Part shown: one piece after another, positions 4,950-23,467 of the stretch
How positions within the stretch are numbered: the first letter of the stretch is position 1
Layout of the letters: each line of letters begins with the position of its first letter
Assembly (NCBI GenBank): GCA_900128395.1
Contig: LT649479.1
Coordinates: forward strand, 1 to 23,835
Length of the DNA stretch: 23,835 nucleotides
Source: Stramenopiles sp. TOSAG23-2
Taxonomy: Eukaryota > Sar
Direction: 5' to 3'
Notes under the pieces: generated by a model
Database searches by the model: none
Seen by the model: only the letters and a program-made list of their open reading frames with translations
Told to the model about the DNA's origin: nothing
Program-made: the position numbers and the translations under genes

Positions 4950-5647
4950 AATTAGATTTAATTTGTTTTTTTTTTAACTAAATGAATGCTAATAAATACT
5001 AAAACACAGAGTGTGAGTGTGTGTGTGAGAGAGAGACAGATGGTTATGCAAAATAAATCTGTTCCTTTATACTTTGTCGTGTGTTAGGATATGTATTTTG
5101 TCGTTACACATACACACACACACACACACACACCTCTCTTTTGGTATTAATTTTTACATACTGTATAAAACAATCAATGTCCAGTGATTGATTATTGAAA
5201 AAAATAATGGTGAAAAAAAAAAAATAATAACGGCAGCTAATGAGAATACCTTAAAACACAATATATATTAGCTACTCCATAGCATTAAAATTTGAAAAAA
5301 TGTTTTAATTTTTCCCACAGCTGAATAGAAAAGCAAATATATTTGATGATCCGTCTCATTTATTTGGCAGTTAAAATATTCAGTATACGTTGTAAGTACA
5401 AATTGATAGGGTAACTCATATTACATTTTAACATCATCAGGTTATAATTTTATTTTTTATTCTACTACCCACTTATATAGTGATATATGATAATAAAAGT
5501 AGTGTTTTGAATTGATCAACAATCATATTGTAACATAAATATGTACAGAGTTATATATATAGTTATTTATCTACATATACAACAACTACGACGACGATTA
5601 ACGTAATAGATATATATATATATATATAAAAGAGAAATATAGCAAAG
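4950..5647. promoter_or_regulatory. Shared upstream region of two divergent cilium-related genes
   Basis: This 698-bp AT-rich spacer contains a (TG)n/(GA)n run at about 5010-5040, a (CA)n microsatellite at 5106-5133, A-runs near 5213 and a (TA)n tract at about 5609-5628 just before the start codon at 5648. No conserved transcription-factor site could be recognised. Promoter function is inferred only from position. Confidence 0.4.
5106..5133 (+). repeat. (CA)n microsatellite
   Basis: About 12 CA units, with one CAT interruption at the left edge. Confidence 0.95.
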
Positions 5648-8600
5648 ATGGGAAAGAAAGGAAAAAAGACGAAGAAAAAAACAAAGAAAGAAGAAGATTC
5701 AGACTTTTCAGAAGATGATGATATGGAAGAGGAAGAACTAGAAGAGGAAGTAACAACAAAGAAAAAGAAAACAACAAAATCATCGTCAAGTAAAAAGAAG
5801 AAAGGGAAGAAGAAGAAAACAAATACATCTGACGAAGAGGATGATGAAAGTTTAGAAGAAAAAAGTGATGACGAGTCTGAAGCTGAAAGTAAAGAAGATT
5901 CTGATGAAGAAGAGGAAGACAAAAAAGAAAATTTATATGCTCGTAAACTTAAGAAACAAACCAAAGGTATTGCGAAAATGATCTGGGAACAAGTACAAAA
6001 TAACAAGAAAATAACATCATTGTATCAATGTTATAAAGATAAATTTACTGTCAAACCAAAACTAGTCTTAAAAAAGTTTAAGGCAAAACTTGAAAAACTC
6101 ATCGGTAAAAATAAGTCTGAATATAAAGAGATTGAAGGCGTATTCAAAGACTTTGCTTTCGGTGGAGAAGATATTACATTCAATTCATTTTTTATTACTA
6201 TGTACCAATATCTATATAAGGAAGCTGGTTCGGATCTTAACATGGGTGATATAGAATTGAAAGTGTTAAAAGAAAAGTATATTGGAACGGACATTCCGGC
6301 AGATCAAACAATTCAAGATAGAATTAGCAAAGAGAAAATCAGGAAAGCTTTTTTAAATGGTAAAGTTTTGGATAAAAAATCTTTTACGAAGGAAATTATT
6401 AAGAAAGTATTACCGACACTTGGTGATAAAAAAGCGAAGAAAGATCTTGAAGTTATCTTTAATGTATTTTCATGTCTTTGTAAAAATGACGATGAAATTG
6501 CTATGGATGACTTTTTAAATTTTATCGGGGATTTTAAATCAACTGGTGGAGATGATGACGAGGATGATGAGGATGAGGATGAAAGCGAAGAAGATGAGGA
6601 GGAAGAAGATGAGGAGGAAGAAGATTCGAAAAAAAGTAAAAAGAAAAAAAGTAAAAAGAAATCAGTTGCAAAATTTACATTGGTTTCAAAAGAATTGAAA
6701 AAGTTATTTGAAGCTTACATGGAAAAGACTAAACGTCCTATTGAAACCATGCGTAAAGAGTTTCAAAAAATTGATAAGAAAGGTGGCAATGGTACTGTAA
6801 CTTTTAAAGAATTTGAAAAGATCATTAAGAAGAAAATGAAGAAAGCAAAGAGTGACGATATAACTGTTGTAATGGATTGTTTTGATCTTGAGCAAAAACA
6901 ACTGGTTGCATATGAAGATTTCATTGTCTACCTTGAATCATTAGGCGAAAGTGCCGAAGTCAAAGAGTTAAAGCTTAAACTACGTTCAGAAATCACTAGC
7001 AGTTTGAATGAAGCTCCTGATGATGATGATGCATTGACGTATAAAAAAAGACGTGAATTATTGCAAGAAACGTTTGCACTCGTCGACAAGAACGACCAAG
7101 GTTTTATTAAAAAGAAAGCTTTTGAGTCCAGTTTGAAAAAGCTGATTGATATTAATAAAAAAGAGCTAAAATTATTATCATCGGCGTTGGATGAAGATGG
7201 TAATGGGAAAATAACATATGCTGAATTTGTTGCGTTTGTATTCCCAGATCGTGAACTTGATGAAACAATTAAATTAATGCGTGCTTCTTTAAAAGCAGGT
7301 GTAAAGAATTTTGGTGGTGAAAATGCCGTTAAATCCTTGTTTGATAACATTGATACGGATCAAAATGGGAAACTCTCAGTTGATGAAATTGTCGCGGAAT
7401 TTATAATGTGCGAATTTCCAATTGATAGTTCGGTTGCATATCAAATTATGATGCGATATGATAAAGATGGGGATGGGACAATCAATCCAAAGGAATTTTT
7501 TGAAATTTTAGATGAAGTGGAGAATGATGAAGATGACGAAGAGAAGGAGGAGGAAGATGAAAATTTAGACGATTCTAATGATAGCGCGGCCAATACGGGG
7601 GCATTGTTAACAAAAGGTATGAAGAGAATCTTATGGCAAGGGGGTATATCGCTAGCTTTGAAACAAAAAACCAGTGCCAAAAATGCTGTCTTGAAGGGAT
7701 TTAAGAAAAAAGAAGCCGAAGGCGAAACTGTAACGATTAAAAAACCAGTTTTTTTAAAAGATTTAAAAACTATGAAAGCCTTCAAATTGAAATCTCATCA
7801 TTATGAAAAAATTGCAGATACGTTTAGTCATGATGCATCCCGCGAAAATGTTGATATTTCAGAATTTGCAGCATTTGTTTCCACCCCTGCTCATGATTTT
7901 GGTCGAGATGGTAAGGAAATCAAAAAAATTGCTGAGAAATTGCATGCTGGCATCGATAAAGAATTTGAGAAGAGAAAATCGAAGTACAAGACTACATATG
8001 TGATGATGAAAGAAATATTTGCTGCACAAGGTGGTGATAAGAAAAAAGGCACCATACCAGAGAACAAATTAGAAAGTGTCTTAAAAAAGATTTCTCCAAG
8101 CGTAAAATTGAAAAACGATGAAATTGATGCTTTGAAAAGACGGTTTGTGATTAAAGGCACCATACACTACAACGATTTCATTTATTTCATCGATCCGCAA
8201 CCTGATATTGAAAAATTAATTAAAAAATTGCGCGTTAAAATAAAAATTATGAACAGGCATGGCAATGATATCGAAACAATATTTGAAGAAGCTGATGCGG
8301 ATAAAAGTGGTGCTTTGGCGTATGGTGAATTTGCTACGCTTTTGAAAACCACGTGCGGGTTGCCAATAACAGATGCGCAATGCCATGCTTTAATTAAACG
8401 TTTAGATGTAGACAATGATGAAGAAGTTGATATGGATGAATTTCTAGATTTAGTAATAGAAGACGATGAGGAGGAGGAGGAGGAGGAAGAAAAAGATGCA
8501 AAAGACAAGAAAAAAGGCAATACCGACGCAAAAAATAAAAAAGATGCAAAAAAAACAGCAGAAATTAAACCAGAAGATTGGGAAAAAGTCAAGAAAATAT

Positions 8601-9403
8601 TAGTTGTATGGGTAAATGATGACGAAGAAAATATAGACACGTTTGAAGAGGAAGCTGAAAATGTTGCTGGTGAAAAGAAGACAGCCATTGAAGATGAAGA
8701 ATTCGTAGATTGTCTTCTTACAGCTGGTTGTGATAAATTATCAAAAGCTCAGCAAGCTTTAGTGTGTAATAAATTCAGAACGAAAGGTAAAGATAGTATG
8801 GTTGATTTCGTTGCATTTCTCGATTATTGCGAGGAGGTTGCGAACTTGGTTGCGGACGAAGACGATAAAAAAAAGAAAGAGGTGGTGAAATCTAAGTCAG
8901 CTACTGATAAAGACAAGAAAAAAGATGAAGCTACTACAAAGTCGACTAGTAAGAAACCTGAGAAGAAGAAAGATGATGATAAAAAGAAGGTAAAAGAAAC
9001 CAGTGGAACTAAAATTTTGAAACATTCAAAAGATCAAAAATTTATGATTGGGGATATGGTATGGGTAAGTTTTGAGGACGATGATTATGAACAAGTTAAA
9101 ATTACATCATACGATAGCAAGAAAAAGCAATATGAAGGTGAATTTCAAGATGGTAGTGGAGATAAAGATACATTTGATGAAGCTGAACTTTCAGCGGAAA
9201 ATCCAAAAGAGAAAAAGAAGGCAGGTAAAGATGTAACGGCGAAGAAAAAAGATGATAAGAAATCTGCAAAAGGAAAGGACAAGAAAGATGATAAAAAGAA
9301 AAAGAAAGTAACTATTAAAGAGGAACAAGATGATGAGTCATCATCAGAGGAAGAAGAAGATATGATGATGATGATGACGATGAGGAAAATTTATTGCCGG
9401 TAG
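5648..9403 (+). CDS. Multi-EF-hand protein with Tudor/SH3-like module; N-terminal part of a nephrocystin-1-like gene
   Basis: A 1,251-codon frame starts ATGGGAAAG and opens with a Lys/Glu/Asp/Ser low-complexity region (1-100). Canonical EF-hand loops lie at residues 515-526 (DEDGNGKITYAE), 569-580 (DTDQNGKLSVDE), 605-616 (DKDGDGTINPKE), 883-894 (DADKSGALAYGE) and 920-931 (DVDNDEEVDMDE). Degenerate loops lie at about 376-388 (one residue too long) and 480-491. Acidic and Lys-rich linkers separate the pairs. Residues about 1131-1182 (FMIGDMVWVSFEDDDYEQVKI...) look like a Tudor or SH3-like barrel. The last 12 or so codons read GAT repeats out of frame (MMMMMTM) and stop at 9401, whereas the next frame continues an acidic run into more EF-hands. 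I infer that this is the 5' part of one gene ending at 11586, probably a Ca2+-binding protein of the cilium or cytoskeleton. Function is inferred. Confidence 0.8.
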   Translation: MGKKGKKTKKKTKKEEDSDFSEDDDMEEEELEEEVTTKKKKTTKSSSSKKKKGKKKKTNTSDEEDDESLEEKSDDESEAESKEDSDEEEEDKKENLYARKLKKQTKGIAKMIWEQVQNNKKITSLYQCYKDKFTVKPKLVLKKFKAKLEKLIGKNKSEYKEIEGVFKDFAFGGEDITFNSFFITMYQYLYKEAGSDLNMGDIELKVLKEKYIGTDIPADQTIQDRISKEKIRKAFLNGKVLDKKSFTKEIIKKVLPTLGDKKAKKDLEVIFNVFSCLCKNDDEIAMDDFLNFIGDFKSTGGDDDEDDEDEDESEEDEEEEDEEEEDSKKSKKKKSKKKSVAKFTLVSKELKKLFEAYMEKTKRPIETMRKEFQKIDKKGGNGTVTFKEFEKIIKKKMKKAKSDDITVVMDCFDLEQKQLVAYEDFIVYLESLGESAEVKELKLKLRSEITSSLNEAPDDDDALTYKKRRELLQETFALVDKNDQGFIKKKAFESSLKKLIDINKKELKLLSSALDEDGNGKITYAEFVAFVFPDRELDETIKLMRASLKAGVKNFGGENAVKSLFDNIDTDQNGKLSVDEIVAEFIMCEFPIDSSVAYQIMMRYDKDGDGTINPKEFFEILDEVENDEDDEEKEEEDENLDDSNDSAANTGALLTKGMKRILWQGGISLALKQKTSAKNAVLKGFKKKEAEGETVTIKKPVFLKDLKTMKAFKLKSHHYEKIADTFSHDASRENVDISEFAAFVSTPAHDFGRDGKEIKKIAEKLHAGIDKEFEKRKSKYKTTYVMMKEIFAAQGGDKKKGTIPENKLESVLKKISPSVKLKNDEIDALKRRFVIKGTIHYNDFIYFIDPQPDIEKLIKKLRVKIKIMNRHGNDIETIFEEADADKSGALAYGEFATLLKTTCGLPITDAQCHALIKRLDVDNDEEVDMDEFLDLVIEDDEEEEEEEEKDAKDKKKGNTDAKNKKDAKKTAEIKPEDWEKVKKILVVWVNDDEENIDTFEEEAENVAGEKKTAIEDEEFVDCLLTAGCDKLSKAQQALVCNKFRTKGKDSMVDFVAFLDYCEEVANLVADEDDKKKKEVVKSKSATDKDKKKDEATTKSTSKKPEKKKDDDKKKVKETSGTKILKHSKDQKFMIGDMVWVSFEDDDYEQVKITSYDSKKKQYEGEFQDGSGDKDTFDEAELSAENPKEKKKAGKDVTAKKKDDKKSAKGKDKKDDKKKKKVTIKEEQDDESSSEEEEDMMMMMTMRKIYCR
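9337..9400 (+). other. Frame-change window in a GAT microsatellite
   Basis: The upstream frame stops at 9401-9403; the downstream frame has its last stop at 9334-9336. The change must lie between these points. GATATGATGATG at 9359-9370 looks like a GAT run missing one G (or with an extra AT). Restoring the repeat frame would turn the Met run into a continuous Glu/Asp tract. The downstream frame has no ATG before its first EF-hand (first one at 9517), so it is not a separate gene with its own start. Confidence 0.75.
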
Positions 9404-11586
9404 ATGAATGGTACAAAAAAATACAAGAAAAAGCATTTGACCAAGCATTTAAAGAAATTGATACGGATGGAAGTGGTGCAATTGATGCAAGTGAATTAGG
9501 TAGTGCATTAAGAGCAATGGGGCAATCTCCTACCGATGAGGAAGTTCAAAGTTTATTGAGTGAATTTGACCATAGCAATACTGGTCAAATCGATAAAAAT
9601 GGTTTCCGCAAGTTAATGAAACGTCGCTTAGGTCATAAACGCCGTAAAGAGCAACATGCGAAGTCGAAAGCAACTTTAGACCAAGTGCAGGTGTTGTTTG
9701 AAGAAATAGATGTCGATAACTCCGGTTCATTAGATAGTAAAGAGTTTGAAATATTAGTTAAAAAGCGCATGCGGATACAATTAACAGCAAAAGAATTCGC
9801 ATCATTATTTGAAGCTATCGATTTAGATAATAGTGGTACGGTTGAATTTGATGAATTTAGTAAATTGTGGGAAGCTGTTGAAGAACATCAAAGTGGTTCT
9901 CGTAGTAAACGTCGTGTTATGAGTGCATTGGCGGAGAGAGCTGTGCAAAAAATTGCGAAGGGCCCTATTGAAGATCCAAGAAAATATTTGCGTGCATATG
10001 CTGGCATGCCTTCTAACTTCCGTCCATCTGTGCTATCTAAATTAGATAACGATCCGTTGCATTCCATAGGGCATATGTTGAGTGGTGCAGCAGATGAATT
10101 GATGTCGCATCAAGTATTGAAGGCGCATCATAATGGCAAACGAATTAAGTTTGAAGAATTACGCGAACTAGATGATTTATCTTCAATTAAAGCATATGTG
10201 AAGTTAAACGATGCGACTGGTGTACCAATTCCAGATGAAGAAAATCGAAAACATATTGAAAATCGTTGGATACGAGTTTGCCTGATGCGTGGGAATCCAA
10301 ATGAAGATCAAGAGTCTAGTACCTCTCGACGTAAATTTGTTGGCAACCAACATATTGCATTGGCAAATTTAAAAGAGGAAGATGTATGGGATTTCACTAA
10401 AAAAGGAACTGGGCTTTCGAACAAGCGCATGGTGATTAAATCAAATGCAAGTGACGCTAAAGATTTATATTTGATCTTTGAATTGACATGTACTGTTCGT
10501 AAAAACGGCAATTCAGGTGCAAAATCAACATTTGAAATGGGTGTAGCGTGGGGAGCCATTAAATTAGAGGATGCTAATGTGCATAGTAAGAAAACCTTTA
10601 GATTGACTATGAAAGGTGGTACGATTGATGAAGACACTGAAATCAAACCAGATGAAATTTTACAAAATCGCACGTTTGTTAAAGGTTTATTTCATCGAAA
10701 GAAAACTGCGTGCCAATTAGAATTAGTTTTCCAACCAATTTCATCTAGTAGTAAAGGCATTTCTGTTCAAGACATACGTAGTATTAGATTATTGCCTCCG
10801 ACAATCATATGTTCCTTGGAATGCGTGAAACTATTACACATGTATCGGTACATTATGAGCCATGGATATAGTAATGCATTAAGTACAAATAGTGGCGGTA
10901 GGAAGAAAAAGAAGAAAGGGAAAAAAGGACGTAGAGATTATGATAGCGATGAGGATAGTGATGATGATAGTGATGATGACGATCGTAGGCGCAGACGTGG
11001 TGGCAGTTCAGATTTTCGCAAAGATGCGTCAACTCCAAATTTTGGTATACACTTGCCAGAATTAAAAATCTTTCCACAAATTTTAAAAGAACCAACGCTT
11101 CTTCTTCAATTATTAAATTTTCCAGAAATCAAAGTTATGCAAAAAACCATGCAAAAAGATCCACTAAAAGCTTGTAAAGATTTTCGTAAATGCATTTTGC
11201 AATTATGGCCTCAAGTAACCGTACACGGTGCATCATATTCGCATGAGCATGGTGGTCTTGAAAATGCAGAAAGACGCCGATTACGTCCAACGAAAACGGC
11301 GAAAAACATGTTAGGAAATGTTCAAAGGGCGAATTTAGATATGCCATTCATGTCAAATTTAGAAAATGACGGTGGTGCTGGTTGGAATAAACCATTCCAT
11401 ATTAATGAAGTAACAATGCAAGCACCGGATACTGCATGTGCTTTCAGTGCATTGGAAAATATGATCCTTGCATCTGTTACTGGGAAAGCAAAGAAAGCAC
11501 GGAAAGTTAAACGTGGTGGTGATTCACCAGATCGTAGAAAGAAAAAAAAGAAAAATAGATGGGACGATGATGATGATGATTTTTAA
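9364..11586 (+). CDS. EF-hand quartet plus nephrocystin-1-like C-terminal half (3' part of the gene starting at 5648)
   Basis: The frame has four canonical EF-hand loops beginning at nt 9460 (DTDGSGAIDASE), 9568 (DHSNTGQIDKNG), 9709 (DVDNSGSLDSKE) and 9820 (DLDNSGTVEFDE), a calmodulin/centrin-like quartet. From about 9950 the protein resembles the C-terminal half of nephrocystin-1 (NPHP1), a ciliary transition-zone protein. From memory, the human protein has the ordered counterparts of FEMGVAWGAIKLED, a Gly-Gly-Thr turn before an acidic DPS-type stretch, LLPPTIICSLECVKLL, the LPELKIFPQILKEP segment and the final DFRKCILQLWP helix. A Lys/Arg/Asp-rich insert (about 10890-11030) interrupts the domain. 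The C-terminus is Lys-rich then poly-Asp. The animal SH3 domain is absent. The frame lacks its own ATG, so it needs the upstream segment. The assignment rests on remembered similarity, not an alignment. Confidence 0.75.
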   Translation, partial: DDDDDDEENLLPVDEWYKKIQEKAFDQAFKEIDTDGSGAIDASELGSALRAMGQSPTDEEVQSLLSEFDHSNTGQIDKNGFRKLMKRRLGHKRRKEQHAKSKATLDQVQVLFEEIDVDNSGSLDSKEFEILVKKRMRIQLTAKEFASLFEAIDLDNSGTVEFDEFSKLWEAVEEHQSGSRSKRRVMSALAERAVQKIAKGPIEDPRKYLRAYAGMPSNFRPSVLSKLDNDPLHSIGHMLSGAADELMSHQVLKAHHNGKRIKFEELRELDDLSSIKAYVKLNDATGVPIPDEENRKHIENRWIRVCLMRGNPNEDQESSTSRRKFVGNQHIALANLKEEDVWDFTKKGTGLSNKRMVIKSNASDAKDLYLIFELTCTVRKNGNSGAKSTFEMGVAWGAIKLEDANVHSKKTFRLTMKGGTIDEDTEIKPDEILQNRTFVKGLFHRKKTACQLELVFQPISSSSKGISVQDIRSIRLLPPTIICSLECVKLLHMYRYIMSHGYSNALSTNSGGRKKKKKGKKGRRDYDSDEDSDDDSDDDDRRRRRGGSSDFRKDASTPNFGIHLPELKIFPQILKEPTLLLQLLNFPEIKVMQKTMQKDPLKACKDFRKCILQLWPQVTVHGASYSHEHGGLENAERRRLRPTKTAKNMLGNVQRANLDMPFMSNLENDGGAGWNKPFHINEVTMQAPDTACAFSALENMILASVTGKAKKARKVKRGGDSPDRRKKKKKNRWDDDDDDF

Positions 11587-11770: not shown

Positions 11771-12535
11771 TCATAGCTTTTGTTTCTTTTTTACCCTCTT
11801 CTTCCTGTTCTTTCTATTCTTTCTCTTTTTTTTTCCAGGTCCATCAGATATTGGCACTGTGTTTATTTCCTGTACAAATCTTTGTAATAACAAATATTTC
11901 AGCAATACATGTTGTTGAAAATCAATCCTAGAAATATTATGTTTCAAGTAAATGTGCTGAAGTAATGATTTAATATGTTCAAACGGTAAACACTCATTAC
12001 AATAATTGCATTTATACTTTCGTTCTGGTTTTATTCCATTACAAATTTTTTCATGCATATTCCTTTTACATTTTGCAGGGAATAATTCACCACATTCACC
12101 TTTCCTGCATACATAAAATTTGCAAGCAGGATCCTCAATTCCATGAACTTTTTTTTTATGAAATAGCATGTTTGCTTCTGGCACATCCATACGGTAATTG
12201 TTTCTAAATATTTTCGTACAATTACTACATTTTACTGTATATTTATATTTTTCTTCTTCTTGTTTTTCAATTATTTTATGTACATTCTTTTTATGCGTGA
12301 TTAAGTCACACTTGGAAAGAAATACACGATTAGTACACAATTCCTCATTACATAGATGATATGTGATACTATTGTCTATAATACCATGTTGTTTTCTTTT
12401 ATGAACATGCATCAGATATTCCACTGTTTTCTTACCCTGATGATGTTTTACAACATTGCACCCTGTTTGATCACACATGAGACTATATCCATTCTCAGGG
12501 CGTTCCCCCCTGCCTTTATTAATATATCTTGGCAT
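11771..12535 (-). CDS. C2H2-type zinc-finger protein with five fingers and a basic tail
   Basis: From the ATG at 12535 (MPRYINKG) the protein has 254 residues. An ATG 17 codons upstream exists, but its extension is encoded by a TA-repeat leader (IYIYLYI), so I prefer 12535. Five Cys/His clusters are visible: C21/C26 with H43/45/50; C62/C67 with H81/H86; C103/C106 with H126/H131; C143/C148 with H161/C165; C176/C179 with H194/H199. Several have CX4C or long inter-pair spacing, unlike the strict Krueppel type. The C-terminus ends in a strongly basic KKKRKNRKNRKKRVKKKQKL tail, a likely nuclear or nucleolar signal. It is a DNA- or RNA-binding candidate in the nucleus; the target is unknown. It is convergent with the nephrocystin-1-like gene and divergent from VWA8. 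Confidence 0.75.
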   Translation of the reverse strand: MPRYINKGRGERPENGYSLMCDQTGCNVVKHHQGKKTVEYLMHVHKRKQHGIIDNSITYHLCNEELCTNRVFLSKCDLITHKKNVHKIIEKQEEEKYKYTVKCSNCTKIFRNNYRMDVPEANMLFHKKKVHGIEDPACKFYVCRKGECGELFPAKCKRNMHEKICNGIKPERKYKCNYCNECLPFEHIKSLLQHIYLKHNISRIDFQQHVLLKYLLLQRFVQEINTVPISDGPGKKKRKNRKNRKKRVKKKQKL

Positions 12536-13313: not shown

Positions 13314-16300
13314 ATGGAGGAACAAAACGGGGGAAATGCTATTACGGAAGAGGGAAAGCAGCAACAGAAAGAAAAAGCAATTAAACGTCGATTAAAGCAT
13401 CTATATGCTTCTACAACGTCAGGAATAACAAACACGGCGCCGGAATTGATACCTACTGGTTATGATCAAGATTGTTCATTATTACGTACGTCATGGGCTT
13501 ATGACCATATACGTTGGATGGTACAGAAAGATGCATTAGGCCAAGACATGTTTTTAATAGGTACCCATAGTCCATTACGACGTTGGTTAGCATTTCGTTT
13601 TTGTGAAGTTACAAATAGAGAATGTGAATTTGTAGCTTTGACCTCTGATACAAGTGAAGCAGATCTGAAGGCTAGAAGAGAGTTAAGGCATAAGTCGGAC
13701 AGTGCAAATTCAACCATCTCAGTTGTATGGTTTGATCAAGCAGTTGTACGTGCAGCTACGCTGGGCCGTGTTTTAATATTGGAAGGTTTAGAAAAAGCTG
13801 AAAGAAATGTCTTGCCGGTATTAAATAATTTATTGGAAAATAGGGAAATGCAATTGGAAGATGGGCGATTTTTAGTCGCGCCAAAACGTTATGATGAGCT
13901 GATTAATAAACAAGGTAGAACCGGTTTGGAAGATTTAGCATTGGTGCGCGTACATGAAAAATTTCGCGTCATAGCTGTTGGAGTGCCAAGTCCACCATTT
14001 CCAGGTAACCCATTGGATCCACCTTTACGTTCGCGTTTTCAAGCACGTCATATCGAACGTTGTCCAACGGAAGAATTGTTATTATCGTTGCGAACTCGTT
14101 ATGCACCAACCGTTCCGCGCAATACGGTTGAGCGATTGTTAGCAACATATGAGGCGGTATGGGCACTTGGTGATTCACAAGCAGATACAGCTGGCGTTGA
14201 GGCAAAGGCATTGGCGTTTAGTTCATTATGCTATCCATGTGAACAATCAATTATTTCGGCATCTAATTTATTGGAAAATTTACCTGGTTTACAAGTTGCC
14301 GATGTATTAGAGCGTATATTTCCAGCGATGCCAGAATCTGGCTTATTGCAAGGGGAAGCAGCTGTATTAGTTGGACAAGTGTTAGCAACGTTGCGAAATA
14401 CGAATCGTAGAATTGAAACATCCTATGAATTAGTCAATATTGAAAAAGGTGGTAAGGATGTGAATATTGTTGGTCCAAATACTCATACATTTCATTTTTT
14501 AAATCATGATGATGGCAAAAGAAATTCTGTAACTGCAAATGTTGGACATTTTTCTCCTAAAGTTCCTGGGAATATATTGCAAGCACCCATTATTAACCTT
14601 GTTACACGCATGGTACAATCTACTATATGTGGAAACGACGTTTGTTTAATTGGTGGAAGAGGGGAAGGAAAGACGTTCGTTTCGAAGGAGTTTGCAAGTT
14701 GCTTAGGATATGTGCAAGTTGAAACATTATTTTTGTTTGAAGATATGACTGCTAGGGATTTGTTACAGCGAAGAAGTACAAATAGCCGTGGTGAAAGTAT
14801 TTGGGAACCGACACCGTTATCGACTGCGATGGAATTTGGCCGTTTGTGTATATTAGACGGTTTGCACCGTTTACCTGCAGGTACAATAGCTGCATTAGTT
14901 CGTTTAATTCAAGATCGTGAAGTTTCCTTGTACGATGGTACACGATTTATTTCTACACGCAGATGGGAGTATTTAAAAAGCATCTCATCTGAGGAGGAAT
15001 TACTGAAACGTAAAGTTAGGCCAGTACATCCATCGTTCCGTATATTGGGTTTAGCAGCGCCACCAGAAGCACGTGGCAGGCGATGGTTAAGTAATGAAGT
15101 TATGCAACTATTTCATTATTTTGTGTTGCCGTTGGAACAAAATATGTATTCAATTGTAAAAAATACGGTGCCAAAATGCCCAGATCTAGTTGTTACCAAA
15201 TTAGTTGATATTCGACGACGATTGATGGAAGCTGCATTGGATCCTGGATCACCACTATGGGTGGACACCGGTGATTACACTGGAAGTTCCACAATGGACG
15301 ATAACATGCAAGATGTAGATGATGCAGAAATTGCGAATGAGGAGGATGAAGTAGCAGCTAAAATGGCTGCGGTATCATCTCAAGCTGTTACGCTATCGAT
15401 GCGACAAATAATTCGTGCAGCAAGACGCGCTGCGACAGCAAATTTTGAAGAATCGACGGAAGATGAGCGTGCGGAAGATATCGGAAATAGTTTAGAAGCT
15501 GCATTAATGACTGAATTTATGCCACGTGCAGAACGTGCATCTGTTCGAGAAATTTTACGTTCTGTTGGTTTAGGTGGTGGTTCTAGAAAACTAAGGATTG
15601 CTGCTGCAGGATCGATGGAAATCGTAGAAGCGGATTTCGACGCTGCTGATCCAAAAATTATTATTGGTGATGTGACATGCCCCGTGTACTCACCAAAAGA
15701 GCCTGCATTGGTGCCAGATACTCTATTCTTTGCTATTCCGCAACAAAAATTAGTTTTGAGGGATATGCTTCGTGATTTAATTGCAATGGAGCATATTTTA
15801 TTAATGGGAAACCAAGGGGTTGGAAAAAATAAAATGGCAGATAAGTTGTTGATGTTATTACAGCGAGAACGGGAGTATATCCAGTTACATCGTGATACTA
15901 CTGTAGGGTCATTAACTTTAGCACCTAGTTTGCGTGAAGGTATTGTTGTTTTTGATGATTCGCCATTGGTGAAGGCGATGATTAACGGTCGCATTTTACT
16001 TATTGATGAATTCGATAAAGCGCCAACTGAAGTTGTCGTAGTATTGAAAGCGTTGCTTGAAGATGGTGAAATCTTGCTAGCAGACGGCAGGCGTTTCGTT
16101 CGTTCCAATTCTAAAATGCTTGGCACAGGTGATAACATCAAACCGATTGCTGATGGATTTAAAGTTATTGCATTGGCTAATCGACCTGGATTTCCATTTT
16201 TAGGTAATGATTTTTTCCGTGAGATGGGTGATTGTTTTGCTTGCCATGCCGTGCAAAATCCAGATCAACAATCTGAAATTGTGTTATTGCAATCATATGC

Positions 16301-19300
16301 ACCTGAAGTGCCAGAGGCCTTGTTAAGGATGTTGACAAGTGCATTTCGTGAATTGCGGGAATCAGTTGATGCAGGTAAATTAATTTATCCATATTCCACG
16401 CGTGAATTAACAAATGTAGTACGGCATTTAGCAAAATACCCTGGCGATACAATTACCACCGTACTTGAAAATGTATTTGCATTTGATGTATATGATCCAC
16501 AATTACGTGAAGTTTTATTCGGTATATTTCAACGCCATGGGATACCATTAGGGCAAGCAGATGGCTCGATGAATACATCCAGTCAAGGTGTAAGTGGTGT
16601 TGCTGTTCCAACTCCGTTGCCTTTGCCAAGTGAATATGGAAGTTTAATTCGACAACCAAATGCGAAGGAAAGTGTAGTAACCTTTGATTGCTCCACGCAT
16701 AAAGGTAAAATGATTAAAACGATGAAATACCGCGATATATCCCCTGAAGAAGCTGAGGATTCTGGTGGAGTGCCAAAAGACATGCTTGATGGTGAAGCTG
16801 GAGCTGAGTGGACGAAGCTTTCATTGACTTCTGCTAGATCCGAGCGTTTTTGTGAAGAAGATCAGTGGTGGAGAATCGGTATGATAACACGTGAAGGTGT
16901 TATGATCAAAGGTGTCGACCCTTTGCAAGGATCTTGGATGGGAGAGTTATTGGCCATGGAAAGTTGTGAAAATACTTTGTGTGTGTTAACATCTAGAATG
17001 GAAATGCATGTGCATGATATGGAACAAGAGCTTGTTAGGGAATTGCCATTGATGTTGTCAAGGGTTATGGATGAACGTTCCGTATATGCAAAAGGTCGTT
17101 ATATGATACCAATCGATACGCTTGGTTGCCTGGTTTTATTTGATCAACGAATGGGTTCATTACTCAAGGTATTTCCAAAAAGTGGTGTTGTGGAATCGTA
17201 TCAATGTCCACCTCCTGGCGTTGATCTTAACAGCTGGGAACCTGGTCAAATGAAGCAAACATTAATGGCTGGAGGTATTGGTGAAATGGCTGTCTTGCAT
17301 GATGTAGATGGCACCTCCGTTATCATATTTAATGCATCGACACTTAAAATAACACGTTTAAGAGTAAATTTGCCAAAAGGTTTTGTAATTCACAACATTC
17401 GTATTTTAGGATCGAGTAATATGCTTTTATATTGCCATAGTAGCGAACACGGTGTATCCACTTATTATGAATTGAATATTGCAAATTTATCCTCCCCTAT
17501 AATAACATCCGTCGATGTTGTTGTCCACGGAGATGATAAGTCGGTTGATTTTTTTGCTTCGCCGTTATCAATAGCTCAATTTCCCGTTCCTGCTATACCG
17601 GAAGATAATGGTGGTCCAACTGTTCATATTTCATCAGCGACATCAACATATGCAACTTATGGTCTTGGCATTGAAATCACGGAGAAGAAGAAATCGAAAA
17701 TTATGGGTTATACCCGTTCAATGGATCATCGACATGCTGTTGCAGATTTAGTGGGAGATGAAATCAACGATGATAATACTGGTGGTGTACAAGAAGAGGA
17801 ATTGTACAATGGTGCCAATGGTTTACGTAAAAAGGTTCAAGTTCAAAAGAAAGAAGCCAAGAGTCGAGTCCTTTCATGTATACATAACGCGTCAAGATCG
17901 AAAATATCTGTTATTTCAATCATCTCCAATAATCATCTAGCAGTTGATCATGATGCTGTGCTGATTGAATTAGTAGATATGGGCTCAGGTCAATTGCGTC
18001 AAATTGCAGCAACAAAATTTCCTGGTTTAGGATTGGATGGTATCGATAGGGAAGGACAAGGTACTGGTGGCAGTTTAGCTGGTCGTGGTTTAAAAGTTAC
18101 TGTAAACAATCCAAGACCCCCAGCGAAGGAATTGGGTATGGCATCTGCCGTTGCTTGTTGCGAAACTAGTGATGGTCGCTTAGCATTGTTATTCAGTGAT
18201 GCGCATGTTCGTTTATTGGAAGTTCGTCAAGATAAATTAGCTGTACAAGAAGCTTTATTTACTACGTTAACAGGTGATGGTGGTGCATTTGGTGACGATG
18301 ATGGAATGCGAGGTGCCGGTATGGATGATATTGATGATTTCGATGATGATTTCGATGACGATTATTCAGATGATGAAGATTGGGACGAAGATGAAGAGTG
18401 GGATGAAGATGAAGATTGGGACGAAGATGAAGATGGTGGTGGTAATGAAAGAGGTGGTAATCGCAGAGGCGGCCGTAAAGGTGGAAGGCAACGAGGCCGT
18501 GGAAAAGGTAATGGTCGTGGAAAGGGGCGTGGGGGTAAAGGCAAAGGTCGTGGTGGAAAAGGTAAAGGAAAAGGTGAGGGAAAAAGACGTGGAGAAAATA
18601 GACGAAGACAATTAACGAAAGAAGCGAGAGAAGGTGCTGCTGATGTTTTAAGAGCAGCTCGAAAGCTAGCTAGCGAGGCAAGCGACAATCAAAGGTTAGA
18701 ATTAAATATGGATCAAGTGGATGAAGGTAAATATGATGAATTGTATGCTACTGTAGAAAACGAAGTAAATCAACTTCGAGTTGTTTTACAGTCGGTTGAA
18801 GCAAAGGAAAAAGAACGTACATGGCTACGCGGGAAGACAACTGGAGAATTGGATGATTCTAGATTGGTTGACCTTGCTATTGGGGAAAAAAATGTGTATA
18901 AACGTCGTGGACAAAGAGAAGAATCGCGCTTGACTCAACGTTTACCAAAACGCATGTCGTTTGTTGTGGATGTTAGTGGTTCCATGGCCTATTTCAACGG
19001 CGATCAACGTTTAGATCGTCTATGCGCCACCGTAGTCATGCTTATGGAAGCATTGGCCGGTCTTGAACATAAATATCAGTACGAAGTGATTGGACATAGT
19101 GGTGAAACATTTGAGTTACCATTAGTAAATTTTGGGCGACCACCAACAAATCGAGGGGAACGATTAGCAGTTGTGCAAACTATGGTAGAGCATGCTGCTA
19201 GTTGTCGCAGTGGGGATAATACATTGGCAGCAGGCGCAAGAGCAGTAAAACATGTGCGTTCTGAGGAAGCTGATGATTTTTTCGTTTTTTTAATCTCCGA

Positions 19301-19520
19301 TGCGAATTTAGATGGTTATGGTGTAAGCCCTGAAGTTTTAGCACAAGCATTGACGAATGATCCACAAGTTAATGCATATGCAGTATTTATCGCCGAGCCG
19401 CGTGTTGCAGCGGAAATGCAAGTGCGCATGCCTTCTGGGCGTGCACATGTTGTATTGGAAAACGAAGGGATGCCATTATTGTTTAAAGACATTTTTACAA
19501 GAGCAATGTTGAATAGTTGA
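13314..19520 (+). CDS. VWA8: VWA8: three-AAA+ ATPase with C-terminal von Willebrand factor A domain
   Basis: A 2,068-residue intronless frame; an in-frame TAA just upstream fixes the start. The first module has the near-invariant VWA8 block around residues 150-190 (RVLILEGLEKAERNVLPV, then NNLLENREMQLEDGRF), but its Walker A is degenerate (GTHSPLRRW). The second AAA+ has Walker A GGRGEGKT (447-454) and a Walker-B-like LCILDGL. The third has GNQGVGKN (832-839) and Walker B LLIDEFDK (895-902). The central part is beta-rich. Residues about 1670-1705 are an Asp/Glu/Trp run and about 1710-1760 a Gly/Arg/Lys-rich run. The C-terminal VWA has an intact MIDAS DVSGS (1886-1890) and a later SDANLDG. Animal VWA8 is mitochondrial and related to dynein/midasin-type ATPases. 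Here the N-terminus (MEEQNGGNAITEEGK) is acidic and does not look like a presequence. Length is slightly above the roughly 1,900 residues of the human protein. Confidence 0.95.
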   Translation: MEEQNGGNAITEEGKQQQKEKAIKRRLKHLYASTTSGITNTAPELIPTGYDQDCSLLRTSWAYDHIRWMVQKDALGQDMFLIGTHSPLRRWLAFRFCEVTNRECEFVALTSDTSEADLKARRELRHKSDSANSTISVVWFDQAVVRAATLGRVLILEGLEKAERNVLPVLNNLLENREMQLEDGRFLVAPKRYDELINKQGRTGLEDLALVRVHEKFRVIAVGVPSPPFPGNPLDPPLRSRFQARHIERCPTEELLLSLRTRYAPTVPRNTVERLLATYEAVWALGDSQADTAGVEAKALAFSSLCYPCEQSIISASNLLENLPGLQVADVLERIFPAMPESGLLQGEAAVLVGQVLATLRNTNRRIETSYELVNIEKGGKDVNIVGPNTHTFHFLNHDDGKRNSVTANVGHFSPKVPGNILQAPIINLVTRMVQSTICGNDVCLIGGRGEGKTFVSKEFASCLGYVQVETLFLFEDMTARDLLQRRSTNSRGESIWEPTPLSTAMEFGRLCILDGLHRLPAGTIAALVRLIQDREVSLYDGTRFISTRRWEYLKSISSEEELLKRKVRPVHPSFRILGLAAPPEARGRRWLSNEVMQLFHYFVLPLEQNMYSIVKNTVPKCPDLVVTKLVDIRRRLMEAALDPGSPLWVDTGDYTGSSTMDDNMQDVDDAEIANEEDEVAAKMAAVSSQAVTLSMRQIIRAARRAATANFEESTEDERAEDIGNSLEAALMTEFMPRAERASVREILRSVGLGGGSRKLRIAAAGSMEIVEADFDAADPKIIIGDVTCPVYSPKEPALVPDTLFFAIPQQKLVLRDMLRDLIAMEHILLMGNQGVGKNKMADKLLMLLQREREYIQLHRDTTVGSLTLAPSLREGIVVFDDSPLVKAMINGRILLIDEFDKAPTEVVVVLKALLEDGEILLADGRRFVRSNSKMLGTGDNIKPIADGFKVIALANRPGFPFLGNDFFREMGDCFACHAVQNPDQQSEIVLLQSYAPEVPEALLRMLTSAFRELRESVDAGKLIYPYSTRELTNVVRHLAKYPGDTITTVLENVFAFDVYDPQLREVLFGIFQRHGIPLGQADGSMNTSSQGVSGVAVPTPLPLPSEYGSLIRQPNAKESVVTFDCSTHKGKMIKTMKYRDISPEEAEDSGGVPKDMLDGEAGAEWTKLSLTSARSERFCEEDQWWRIGMITREGVMIKGVDPLQGSWMGELLAMESCENTLCVLTSRMEMHVHDMEQELVRELPLMLSRVMDERSVYAKGRYMIPIDTLGCLVLFDQRMGSLLKVFPKSGVVESYQCPPPGVDLNSWEPGQMKQTLMAGGIGEMAVLHDVDGTSVIIFNASTLKITRLRVNLPKGFVIHNIRILGSSNMLLYCHSSEHGVSTYYELNIANLSSPIITSVDVVVHGDDKSVDFFASPLSIAQFPVPAIPEDNGGPTVHISSATSTYATYGLGIEITEKKKSKIMGYTRSMDHRHAVADLVGDEINDDNTGGVQEEELYNGANGLRKKVQVQKKEAKSRVLSCIHNASRSKISVISIISNNHLAVDHDAVLIELVDMGSGQLRQIAATKFPGLGLDGIDREGQGTGGSLAGRGLKVTVNNPRPPAKELGMASAVACCETSDGRLALLFSDAHVRLLEVRQDKLAVQEALFTTLTGDGGAFGDDDGMRGAGMDDIDDFDDDFDDDYSDDEDWDEDEEWDEDEDWDEDEDGGGNERGGNRRGGRKGGRQRGRGKGNGRGKGRGGKGKGRGGKGKGKGEGKRRGENRRRQLTKEAREGAADVLRAARKLASEASDNQRLELNMDQVDEGKYDELYATVENEVNQLRVVLQSVEAKEKERTWLRGKTTGELDDSRLVDLAIGEKNVYKRRGQREESRLTQRLPKRMSFVVDVSGSMAYFNGDQRLDRLCATVVMLMEALAGLEHKYQYEVIGHSGETFELPLVNFGRPPTNRGERLAVVQTMVEHAASCRSGDNTLAAGARAVKHVRSEEADDFFVFLISDANLDGYGVSPEVLAQALTNDPQVNAYAVFIAEPRVAAEMQVRMPSGRAHVVLENEGMPLLFKDIFTRAMLNS
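18325..18600 (+). repeat. Acidic then Gly/Arg/Lys-rich low-complexity insert within VWA8
   Basis: GATGAAGATTGGGAC-type repeats encode DEDWDEDE units, followed by GGT/CGT/AAA-rich repeats encoding RGRGKG/GGKGKG units. The two oppositely charged tracts adjoin each other between the beta-rich region and the VWA domain. Confidence 0.85.
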
Positions 19521-19534: not shown

Positions 19535-22500
19535 TTATATACCTTGTAAAGTAAATTTTTGATTTTTGATTTCTACATCCGTAACACAACTCAAGAACTC
19601 AAGTTTTTCCTGGTTTTTCATATTATTATTTTCATCATCGACATTATTGTTTGTATTAGTCTCAAGATTTCCAAATTCATCAATCAAACCAAATTCTTCT
19701 TCCTCTTCCTCGTAGACTTCGTCCTCACCATGGTTATCTTCAAATATTTCAAAGTCATATTTTGGATCAGATAAATCTCGTGTTATTGGAGGTGCGACAG
19801 CAAACGTATTTTCATTAGTCGCAACTTCGCCTGGACCCAATCCAACAACATCCAATACATCAGTAACTGCATTATCGGAGCCTACACTTTCTTGTGTAAT
19901 TTGTAGTGGACTTCTAGCACGAGCTGTAACTCTTCTGACAGAAGGAATGTCAACACTTTGTTGTGCATTTTCGTTTTCTGCATTTTCATTGTCAAATTCG
20001 TCCTCTTCATCTTCCTCTTCTTCTACCACTTCAAGAGCTAGCTCTTCCAATACCATATCTTCGCTTTGTAATTGAGCTAATGTACGAGCTCGACGGCCGC
20101 GGCTGGATAATCCACGTGGTGGAGTTTCATTTTCTTGGTTTTCTCTATAAACTTCGACTTCAGTTTCATTTTGATGAACGATAGCAGAGGAATTTTCATC
20201 GTAAATTTGAAAAGCATTGCTATCGTTAACAACATTTTCAGGCTGTACTTGTTGTTCTTGTGCAGCAGATAAAAGATCGGAATTTTCATCGTAAATTTGA
20301 AAAGCATTGCTATCGTTAACAACGTTTTCAGGTTGTACTTGTTGCTCTTGTGCAGCAGATAAAAGATCAACAGTAGCCATACTTGCATTTTTATTAGTAT
20401 TAACATTATTCTCATCGTTTTGGTTCGTGTCTTCAAAAATGGAAAATTGGAATGCACCTTGTGCCGTTTCATTTTTATCGTCGGATGCGGCGTTTACATT
20501 TTCCTTCAATAATTGAGTTGTATCTTTCTCATTGTCATTGGTATTATTATTAGTTGTAGTAGTAGTATTAGTAGTATTATTATTATTATTGCTGTTGTTG
20601 TTTACTAATTCCCTTGTTTCATCTTGAAATATTTCAAAATTAAAAGTATCAGCAGTTTTATTATTTTTTTTTACTGGGGTATTTTCATCCAGCAATTGCT
20701 GAGTATTGTTATCGTCAGCATTATTATTATCAATATCTTCATCATTATCTTGGCGGTCGCTAAGATCAATGTATTCCTTCAGTACTCCTTGTGGGCTGCA
20801 AAATAAATCTCCAAGATCTTGCATTGCAGCTTTCATATTAAGTGTCATGTCATCTCTTGTCATAGTGCCTGGGGAATCATGTTCATCGCCAAACGTATCA
20901 TCATCATCATCAGTTCCATCAGCAGCAATTTTAAAATTATTATTGATCGTTTTTGTATCACTTAATAAACTTTTTCCTTCTATAAATCGTATAGAGGCCA
21001 TTGCAGTTGAAGTTTCCACCCGATTATTAATTGGGCTATTATCATTATCATCAAAAAGTCCCCCGACATCATCTAACGCTTCTTTCATATTAATGGTCAT
21101 GTTATCATGATCATCTTCTTTGTTCGTGTCAAATGCGACGGAGTCATTTGTTTCACCGCCACCAGTGAAAAATAATCTGCGTGTAGCTGTTTTTGGAGAT
21201 GGTTTTCTATTGACATTCTCACTTGGTTTTACCACAGATTGAAATATGGAATTATCATTTCTTGCATCATCAACTGAATCGTTAGCAAAACTATTAAAAT
21301 TTAAAACTTTACGTGTGGTTGTATCTTTTTTCATGGAAGTATTTACTATAGATTTCTCGTCTGCTTTTTTGCCACCAGTAGAAAAAAATAATTGTTTAGT
21401 AGTAGTGCTAGTTTTTGTTGTTGAATTTTCATCAAACTTTAGTATTTTTCTAGCAGTTGATTTTTTTATTGCATGTTGTTGGTGTTGATAATTGTCTACA
21501 ACATCAATTGTTTCCGCTTCCATTTTCTTCTCGCTTGACCAAATTCCACTAGAAACGTTGTTATTATTGTTGTTGTTGTTGTTGTTGTTTGATGCATTAT
21601 CGCCATATAATTCTTGTAAATTTGGTGTAATTGTACAAAGTGTTGCGCGTCTTCCATTATTTCTCGTGCCAAGTGGTTTTCGTCTCATTTCTGTTACAAT
21701 ATCATCGGCACTAGTTTGTAGAGTAGCTAATGCTTTTTTACGTTCTTCTTTTGCTGCTGCTGCTGCTGCTGCTGCTTTCTCTTCAGCTTGCTGTTTACGA
21801 AGTAAATCTTTTTGTTTTTTCTTTGCCAACCACTTCATTCCACGCTGTTCCTCAAAACACATTTCATTAGTATTAATATCCTTTAACAATTTTTCATTAA
21901 ATCCATACGTCACATTGCTATTGGAGGATTTTTTCCGGCGTAACTTGCTTTTTTTAAGTTTTCCCTTCTTCTCGCTTTTACTTTCCTTCTTATCTTTTTT
22001 TCTATTTTTGCTAGATTTTTTCGTACTTTTTTTCTTTACATTACCACTTTTCTTACTGTTAAATTTTTTCTCTGGCATTGGATCTGATACTAAACGTGTT
22101 TCAACATTTGGCATTTCCGCATTTACATTTCCTTCATAATTTTTGAAAGGATTTGCTTTTAAATCAAGCACTTCTTGCTCCTCTTTGCTACGTGTAGCAG
22201 ATCCTTCAATACGCCGCCTTAATGATATTTTTTTAGCAGATGGTTGTACATTTTGATCATCAAAATTTTGATTTACCAACGGTTTTCCATCTTTATTTTC
22301 AACATCATTCATTTCATCAAACTCTTCATCAACACAAATTGCAAACGCATTTTGCTTTGCCGCTGGTATTCGTGGTGCATGATTTCTACTACCTCTACGT
22401 CTGGTAGATTCATCATATAAACCACCTTCATTCCAAGCAGAAACTGTTTTCACATTTTCTTTTTTTCGCTGATCAACCGTTCCAAATTCATCCCAAGGAA

Positions 22501-23467
22501 CAGATGCGCTTTCCTTTAATAGATCATCCCCTCCATCAACCATGTTATTGTTACTATTGCTATTTATAGCATCTTCTGCCCTGAAACCTTCTTCAACAAA
22601 AATTTGAAAATTACCTAATGTCGATACTTGAGAATTATCAGTAAATGCTTGTTGCTGATTATTATGATGTCCACCAAGGCCACCACCAGTTTTTGGCCCC
22701 GTTCTCCTTCCAGTATTTTCATCGATTTGACCACCCGTACCTTGCCTCCTACTACTTCCTGCAGAAGCTTGATTTAACATCGAAAACGCTTCACGGCCAT
22801 CATTATTCCCATTCCTCTCTGTAACATCACGCCCCATGTCCTCATCAGCTTGTTTCAACCAATGCCTAGACATTCTACGTTTAAATTGGGTATGCCTAGT
22901 TTCCAACACATTTTCAGGCTTGGCACCAAGTGCCAGACCACGACAATATATTTTATCCGCCAATGGATAACGTTTCTTTTCCTCCTCAACTAATGCCCAT
23001 GCGATGTAAAAGAAACTCCGTTCCTCTCCTATTTTATTTGCATACAAAAAGCGAAATACTTCGCTAGCATCATCAAGCTCATCTGCATATTTTAACCATA
23101 CTGTTAAATATTTAATATTATTTCTGTATTGTTCATTTTTAAAAAATGCTCTTGTACATCTTTCATATAAAGGCATAGCCACCGCTGAAGATGTTGGAAA
23201 CTCTGTTTCTGCCCACTTAATATACTTTAACCAAGGTTTAATTGGATTATCACCTTCATATGCTACTATAGCATTTTCAAAAGCTTCCCGTTGCATATTT
23301 TGCTTTTCCTTCAATGCTGTAACATGGCTAGAATTTTCAGATAATGCATTTAACTTCTTTACATTACGTCCTTTTGCTCTAGGTTTGAAATTTTCCTTTG
23401 TTTTCTCCCAGCCAAATTCATCAACATCATTTTGATTCGTATTTGTTTCTGACACTATTGTCGCCAT
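19535..23467 (-). CDS. MAD3: Mad3/BubR1-type spindle checkpoint protein with expanded KEN and ABBA motifs, no kinase domain
   Basis: This is a 1,310-residue protein. KEN1 is at 24-26 (EKTKENFKPR), followed by the Mad3/Bub1 TPR-like homology domain (about 55-205; PWLKYIKW, YLTVWLKYAD, FFYIAWA). Next is the classical ABBA-KEN2-ABBA cassette: FQIFVEE (287-293), KEN (336-338), FAICVDE (375-381). A basic region (about 460-515) precedes a GLEBS-like Bub3-binding segment, EMCFEEQRGMKWL (about 534-546). Four [KR]xLxF motifs follow (about 668-768), then two copies of an MT[IL]NMK-A-D-G-LF motif (about 785-890). A second ABBA-KEN-ABBA (944-949, 988-990, 1008-1013) is followed by ABBA motifs at 1056, 1086 and 1239. 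Poly-Asn, poly-Ala and acidic tracts are frequent. There is no kinase domain. In the family, KEN and ABBA motifs inhibit APC/C-Cdc20 as part of the mitotic checkpoint complex. The extra motifs are read directly; their activity is inferred. Confidence 0.93.
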   Translation of the reverse strand: MATIVSETNTNQNDVDEFGWEKTKENFKPRAKGRNVKKLNALSENSSHVTALKEKQNMQREAFENAIVAYEGDNPIKPWLKYIKWAETEFPTSSAVAMPLYERCTRAFFKNEQYRNNIKYLTVWLKYADELDDASEVFRFLYANKIGEERSFFYIAWALVEEEKKRYPLADKIYCRGLALGAKPENVLETRHTQFKRRMSRHWLKQADEDMGRDVTERNGNNDGREAFSMLNQASAGSSRRQGTGGQIDENTGRRTGPKTGGGLGGHHNNQQQAFTDNSQVSTLGNFQIFVEEGFRAEDAINSNSNNNMVDGGDDLLKESASVPWDEFGTVDQRKKENVKTVSAWNEGGLYDESTRRRGSRNHAPRIPAAKQNAFAICVDEEFDEMNDVENKDGKPLVNQNFDDQNVQPSAKKISLRRRIEGSATRSKEEQEVLDLKANPFKNYEGNVNAEMPNVETRLVSDPMPEKKFNSKKSGNVKKKSTKKSSKNRKKDKKESKSEKKGKLKKSKLRRKKSSNSNVTYGFNEKLLKDINTNEMCFEEQRGMKWLAKKKQKDLLRKQQAEEKAAAAAAAAKEERKKALATLQTSADDIVTEMRRKPLGTRNNGRRATLCTITPNLQELYGDNASNNNNNNNNNNNVSSGIWSSEKKMEAETIDVVDNYQHQQHAIKKSTARKILKFDENSTTKTSTTTKQLFFSTGGKKADEKSIVNTSMKKDTTTRKVLNFNSFANDSVDDARNDNSIFQSVVKPSENVNRKPSPKTATRRLFFTGGGETNDSVAFDTNKEDDHDNMTINMKEALDDVGGLFDDNDNSPINNRVETSTAMASIRFIEGKSLLSDTKTINNNFKIAADGTDDDDDTFGDEHDSPGTMTRDDMTLNMKAAMQDLGDLFCSPQGVLKEYIDLSDRQDNDEDIDNNNADDNNTQQLLDENTPVKKNNKTADTFNFEIFQDETRELVNNNSNNNNNTTNTTTTTNNNTNDNEKDTTQLLKENVNAASDDKNETAQGAFQFSIFEDTNQNDENNVNTNKNASMATVDLLSAAQEQQVQPENVVNDSNAFQIYDENSDLLSAAQEQQVQPENVVNDSNAFQIYDENSSAIVHQNETEVEVYRENQENETPPRGLSSRGRRARTLAQLQSEDMVLEELALEVVEEEEDEEDEFDNENAENENAQQSVDIPSVRRVTARARSPLQITQESVGSDNAVTDVLDVVGLGPGEVATNENTFAVAPPITRDLSDPKYDFEIFEDNHGEDEVYEEEEEEFGLIDEFGNLETNTNNNVDDENNNMKNQEKLEFLSCVTDVEIKNQKFTLQGI
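20189..20368 (-). repeat. 90-bp in-frame tandem duplication (two units) in the Mad3-like gene
   Basis: Units 20189-20278 and 20279-20368 differ at three bases. Each encodes the same 30 residues, starting DLLSAAQEQQVQ and ending AFQIYDENS. All three differences are at third codon positions and synonymous (AAT/AAC, CAG/CAA, GAA/GAG). Each unit carries one ABBA-like FQIYDE. Confidence 0.95.
22681..22735 (-). repeat. 55-bp inverted repeat, copy inside the Mad3-like gene
   Basis: The reverse complement of this segment is identical over all 55 bases to 23781-23835. It encodes part of the region GGQIDENTGRRTGPKTGG. Identity stops at the next base (G in the gene copy, C at the terminal copy). Confidence 0.97.

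Follow-up and report, generated by a model that had tools for sequence, protein, structure and literature searches.

How the ciliary gate senses Ca2+ is a question to which, to our knowledge, there is no established answer. Nephrocystin-1 (NPHP1), the closest described relative of the gene reported here, holds a coiled coil and an SH3 domain in one half (within residues 3–256 of the human protein), and its C-terminal half is termed the 'nephrocystin homology domain' in the literature. According to a 2014 study, NPHP1 is restricted to opisthokonts (PMC4092220), and a table in a 2020 paper gives the NPHP1 entry for Paramecium as '-' (PMC7093003). The same paper states that flagellar shedding in Chlamydomonas is set off by Ca2+ close to the flagellar base (PMC7093003). 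The present analysis concerns a gene on contig LT649479.1 (the whole stretch of 23,835 nucleotides, hereafter the window), which belongs to a genome assembly of 17.45 Mb in 793 contigs. One open reading frame of this window combines EF-hand loops of the Ca2+-binding type with homology to NPHP1. With somewhat more confidence than doubt, the encoded protein is considered to be a divergent NPHP1-like scaffold of the transition zone, which carries a calmodulin-like EF-hand quartet, probably within a longer EF-hand array, and responds to Ca2+.

Homology to NPHP1 in a single open frame

The open reading frame at 9337–11586 (ORF2; forward strand, as are all features of this gene) comprises 749 codons including the stop and is open throughout; all three peptides quoted in the original prediction of an EF-hand/NPHP1 fusion lie within it. 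The EF-hand quartet (9436–9873, recognized by Pfam EF-hand_7 and by a loop pattern) is followed by the region of homology to the C-terminal half of NPHP1 (9988–10857), a Lys/Asp/Arg-rich low-complexity insert read from the sequence (10900–11010, limits approximate), within which lies a tandem repeat (10932–10979), and a C-terminal segment (11014–11565). Because the quartet and the homology region both lie inside this one frame, the fusion of EF-hands with NPHP1-like sequence is independent of how the frame is joined to sequence upstream.

Comparison with the database record 'nephrocystin 1 [Homo sapiens]' (P0001, 733 residues) provided the principal evidence for the relationship. BLASTP of ORF2 against this record gave 53.5 bits, with an E-value of 1e-11 for the single pair and 71 of 308 columns identical, in a collinear alignment of ORF2 residues 218–507 with human residues 321–589. 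The local alignment of residues 218–507 with human residues 301–733 scored 109, a value reached by none of 1000 shuffles (mean 33.0, standard deviation 4.7, maximum 55), and when two pieces of the region were aligned with human residues 220–733, the top shuffle score was 57 (500 whole-sequence and 500 block-of-20 shuffles for each piece). Among 242 open frames of at least 100 amino acids from the window and selected loci, a small part of the genome, the runner-up to ORF2 scored 46 against human NPHP1. As a control, the EF-hand part was aligned with the C-terminal half of human NPHP1 and remained at background, its score being reached by 302 of 1000 shuffles. Profile-profile alignment of the window region, combined with a 267-amino-acid ENA protein fragment (P0007), against six primate NPHP1 records gave an E-value of 5.1e-6 and a probability of 86%, with both profiles nearly single-sequence. 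The link to NPHP1 drawn in the original prediction survives the BLASTP, shuffle and profile-profile tests against the human record.

Several results weigh against this reading. A search of the whole genome with human NPHP1 (12 candidates scored) missed the gene, and the nine genome matches of human NPHP1 at E up to 10 all fell within human residues 3–256. Neither tblastn with whole-genome statistics nor phmmer at default filters matched the window region to human NPHP1. Protein searches returned nothing at E up to 0.001 with ORF2 residues 190–749 (7995 candidates sharing most words) and nothing at E up to 10 with residues 196–500 (2293 candidates); these searches cover candidates of about 412–1311 amino acids and a relative of ~2,000 residues would escape them, so absence from the databases is not claimed. 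A control alignment of the homology region with human residues 1–300 scored 51, which 4 of 1000 shuffles reached, and thus points to a slight background similarity. Confidence in the predicted structures is very low, with mean predicted local distance difference test (pLDDT) values of 35.9 and 37.4. Finally, Pfam scans of ORF2 and of the upstream frame ORF1 found no SH3 family at E up to 1, and the gene is therefore filed as NPHP1-like rather than as a regular NPHP1.

ORF2 residues 192–749 had no significant match in Pfam and the rear part of the frame had no PDB sequence match at E up to 10, while the viral and prokaryote genome contigs that were scanned yielded pattern matches and zero relatives. 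A search with an alignment of the window region and a human NPHP1 sequence of 732 letters returned seven proteins, namely the six primate NPHP1 records and P0007. The primate matches confirm the letters of this human sequence (733 in the record); since the query contained human letters, these six matches are no evidence for homology, and since primates alone were returned, the NPHP1 profile is narrow. Overall, the NPHP1 relation is judged to be real, yet close to the limit of single-sequence tools.

The C-terminal segment contributes less. The third motif of the original prediction (LPELKIFPQ, LPELKIFPQILKEP) is not supported as strong evidence for NPHP1, and the part from residue 570 proved marginal: the stretch beginning at GIHLPELKIF scores 38 against human residues 586–733, which was reached by 31 of 1000 shuffles with a 170-residue piece and by 10 of 1000 with a 60-residue piece. 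This amounts to a weak link between the segment and the end of NPHP1. The C-terminal part is well conserved within its own lineage, with 139 of 184 residues identical to P0007.

EF-hands, the upstream frame and alternative readings

The EF-hand quartet occupies ORF2 residues ~34–179 (Pfam EF-hand_7, E 2e-28, two stretches). Three of its loops match all six scored canonical positions, namely loop 1 (9460–9495, from residue 42), loop 3 (9709–9744, from residue 125) and loop 4 (9820–9855, from residue 162). Loop 2 (DHSNTGQIDKNG; 9568–9603, residues 78–89) has G at position 12, so that the 'four canonical EF-hands' originally described are better given as three canonical loops and one imperfect loop. 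The EF-hand pairing and canonical loops required of calmodulin-like proteins were found, as judged by Pfam and by three of the four loops, and among nine EF-hand proteins of the genome compared, the three small calmodulin/centrin-like proteins match the quartet best. In the proposed mechanism, the homology region would bind partners of the NPHP module and so anchor the protein in the ciliary transition zone, and Ca2+ binding by the EF-hands would alter the conformation of the protein or its interactions with partners. An influx of Ca2+ into the cilium or the basal region could in this way act on the gate in cis, not through a separate calmodulin alone. The transition-zone function of the protein is inferred.

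A serious rival, though an unlikely one, holds that the EF-hands serve as structural spacers, or as rods with constitutively bound metal, and that the NPHP1-like region works without them. At least 31 genome matches to ORF2 other than itself were found (60 of 97 candidates scored), all within the EF-hand part (residues 1–208), and at least 16 of them sit in frames of 1,135–4,321 amino acids. EF-hand arrays thus occur on other large proteins of this genome, including an RCC1-type and a B-box-type protein, and this makes a gate-specific role of the EF-hands less convincing. Moreover, in the Paramecium study, RPGRIP1L lacking its EF-hands had the same localization as the full-length form and restored deciliation, so that the EF-hands were dispensable for this process (PMC7093003). 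This parallel works in both directions: it is a precedent for EF-hands on a gate scaffold, as is the RPGRIP1L-like protein of the present genome, but it also makes the spacer role a serious rival. The retention of all six scored positions in three of the four quartet loops, and the proximity of the quartet to small calmodulin/centrin-like proteins, argue against the spacer role.

The quartet may be the end of a longer array. ORF1 (5645–9400; 1252 amino acids from the ATG at 5645) encodes Lys/Asp/Glu-rich linkers with EF-hands (Pfam EF-hand_7, E 1.6e-27, seven stretches). Canonical loops with all six scored positions lie at 7190–7225 (DEDGNGKITYAE, from ORF1 residue 516), 7352–7387 (DTDQNGKLSVDE, residue 570) and 8294–8329 (DADKSGALAYGE, residue 884), and a near-canonical loop with five of six positions at 8405–8440 (DVDNDEEVDMDE, residue 921). 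The EF-hand at 7442–7510 (residues 600–622), the best Pfam EF-hand_1 stretch, has a canonical loop, DKDGDGTINPKE, which escaped the loop-pattern search because of its proline. The claim of at least five more upstream loops is borne out by these approximately five good loops, to which degenerate ones can be added. Acidic low-complexity stretches at ORF1 residue 20 and ORF2 residue 13 also fitted a loose loop pattern and were discounted, as were NCBIfam matches of both frames (the best being the XopAW family at 75.6 bits, with a cut-off of 120), which reflect sub-cut-off EF-hand similarity over the EF-hand part. Apart from EF-hand families, the Pfam scan of ORF1 gave a weak Tudor match and nothing else. 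The Tudor/SH3-like barrel proposed for this region (9035–9157) did not reach significance: LBR_tudor stayed at 13.7 bits (E 0.052), short of its cut-off of 22, and the sole PDB match of the stretch at E up to 10 was a KDM4C chain (E 0.41).

The stop codon of ORF1 lies at 9401–9403, and the frame of ORF1 differs from that of ORF2. The passage between them is placed at 9308–9384, as a slip in a GAT run from ~9359 or as an intron. Twelve frame-compatible GT-AG pairs (20–200 nt) occur between 9138 and 9403, one of them being 9308–9384 (77 nt); with so many that fit, their presence does not speak for an intron, and the frame change, by either route, would lie somewhere in about 9138–9403. ORF2 probably needs upstream coding sequence, because its first ATG (9517, residue 61) falls after the first EF loop (residues 42–53) and its frame is bounded upstream by stops at 9331 and 9334. 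Where the two frames meet, an acidic linker continues unbroken in the reading. From these features, ORF1 and ORF2 probably encode one protein of ~2,000 residues with ORF1 as its N-terminal part. The original prediction of a polypeptide of this size is favored by the lack of an early ATG and by the shared linker and is likely, but it depends on this frame change. That ORF1 is instead a separate EF-hand protein, and ORF2 an adjacent NPHP1-like gene that has a separate exon upstream, appears improbable; the termination of ORF1 in another frame and the low-complexity sequence of the junction favor two genes, and the late ATG, the upstream stops and the single acidic linker oppose them.

The predicted fold of the homology region bears on a further alternative. 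Foldseek with a low-confidence model placed DOCK-family DHR-1 domains, which are C2-type, in four of the top five rows, at E 1.7e-3 to 1.1e-2 (none at E ≤ 0.001) and template-modeling (TM) scores of 0.23–0.41, a lead to a C2-like fold. That the region is a general C2-like domain, with relatives among many C2 proteins and no particular tie to NPHP1, would fit these DHR-1 matches but is very improbable, since the similarity to NPHP1 is collinear over ~290 residues and extends beyond the predicted sheet, with FRPS..LS conserved towards the beginning and LLP.T.I...LL..YR towards the end, and no C2 family in Pfam matches the region. Human NPHP1 may well share this fold, so that the two readings overlap.

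Other genes of the window and the genome

Profile searches of the genome found an RPGRIP1-type C2 domain (E 4.2e-33), a B9 domain (E 9.4e-38) in a protein that we take to resemble B9D1, and a CC2D2A N-terminal C2 domain (E 4.8e-15); on these matches, MKS-type gate proteins are encoded by this genome, a ciliary setting that supports the transition-zone reading. An RPGRIP1L-like frame of 3172 amino acids (L011/L012, G000:C633) contains C2-C2_1 (1.6e-39), a second C2 domain (3.1e-8), at least 10 EF-hand-pair stretches and, judged by eye, a probable N-terminal coiled coil. ORF1 and ORF2 had no match to C2-C2_1, the RPGRIP1-type domain being encoded elsewhere in the genome. Another frame (L013:889–5406, reverse strand; 1506 amino acids) combines four EF-hands with an RCC1-like domain (9.4e-50) and with a galactose-binding-like domain (4.4e-7). 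RPGRIP1 has an RCC1-type partner as well, RPGR. Meckelin and IFT46 had no match in the genome, and the same searches also matched no control genome.

The window is AT-rich (GC 0.27–0.43 per kilobase), and besides ORF2 it holds long uninterrupted frames of 1257, 2072 and 1313 amino acids. An Rfam scan of the window returned zero families. Downstream of ORF2, a Cys/His-rich frame on the reverse strand (11774–12535) resembles C2H2 zinc fingers weakly (E 0.0006), at 20.8 bits where the cut-off is 30. The forward-strand gene at 13314–19517 encodes 2068 amino acids, in which AAA_5 matches three stretches (2.1e-73) and VWA falls short of its cut-off (0.0052); the product resembles VWA8-type AAA proteins. 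On the reverse strand, 19538–23467 encodes 1310 amino acids with Mad3/BUB1 homology region 1 (1.6e-35) and Asn-rich stretches, and is probably a spindle-checkpoint gene.

PDB comparisons of a thymidylate synthase and a calmodulin-like protein did not place the host. The thymidylate synthase frame (L032:1189–2172, reverse strand, G000:C692; 327 amino acids) has ~80 initial residues outside its matches to solved thymidylate synthases, and searches of the genome found no dihydrofolate reductase (DHFR; the same search was positive in 9 of 14 control genomes). This would fit an unfused enzyme, but nothing is concluded from it, as the contig may be of foreign origin, the assembly may have gaps or an intron may interfere. 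Likewise, no light-harvesting protein and no eEF1A C-domain were found in the genome, by searches positive in 1 and 9 of the 14 control genomes, respectively.

Comparison with known systems

The domain architecture of this divergent NPHP1-like protein is judged to be real and unusual. The likeness to NPHP1 consists of collinear homology over human residues 321–589, placed towards the C-terminus in both proteins; the difference is that EF-hands stand here in place of the coiled coil and SH3 domain, which in human NPHP1 are represented in PDB by chains 6o1q and 1s1n, respectively (among the best 60 of 411 matches). Paramecium RPGRIP1L is likewise a protist transition-zone scaffold bearing EF-hands, but these are C-terminal, and the scaffold is a different one, with C2 domains and a coiled coil (PMC7093003). 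The original prediction knew of no published example of this architecture. No EF-hand-bearing NPHP1 is described in the accessible portions of the open-licence papers searched, including PMC4092220, PMC7093003, PMC9271036 and PMC10454709, although Paramecium RPGRIP1L is a close parallel.

If the Ca2+-responsive reading is correct, the presence of EF-hands on the gate scaffold itself would link Ca2+ directly to the gate. A more tentative extension, possible but doubtful, is that NPHP1 and RPGRIP1L both bear EF-hand arrays in one protist lineage, making the gate a distributed Ca2+ sensor, and that NPHP1 predates the opisthokonts if the host is not one of them. Such an age would run contrary to the 2014 distribution (PMC4092220).

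With calmodulin and centrin, the quartet shares four EF-hands in two pairs, and it shares 37% identity over 142 columns with one of the genome's calmodulin-like proteins; it differs in belonging to a larger protein and in having a second loop without the acidic residue at position 12. NPHP5/IQCB1 offers a further likeness in that it ties calmodulin to the NPHP group, reportedly established by Otto in 2005, to judge by the title of that work. There, calmodulin is a separate protein, whereas here the EF-hands are in cis.

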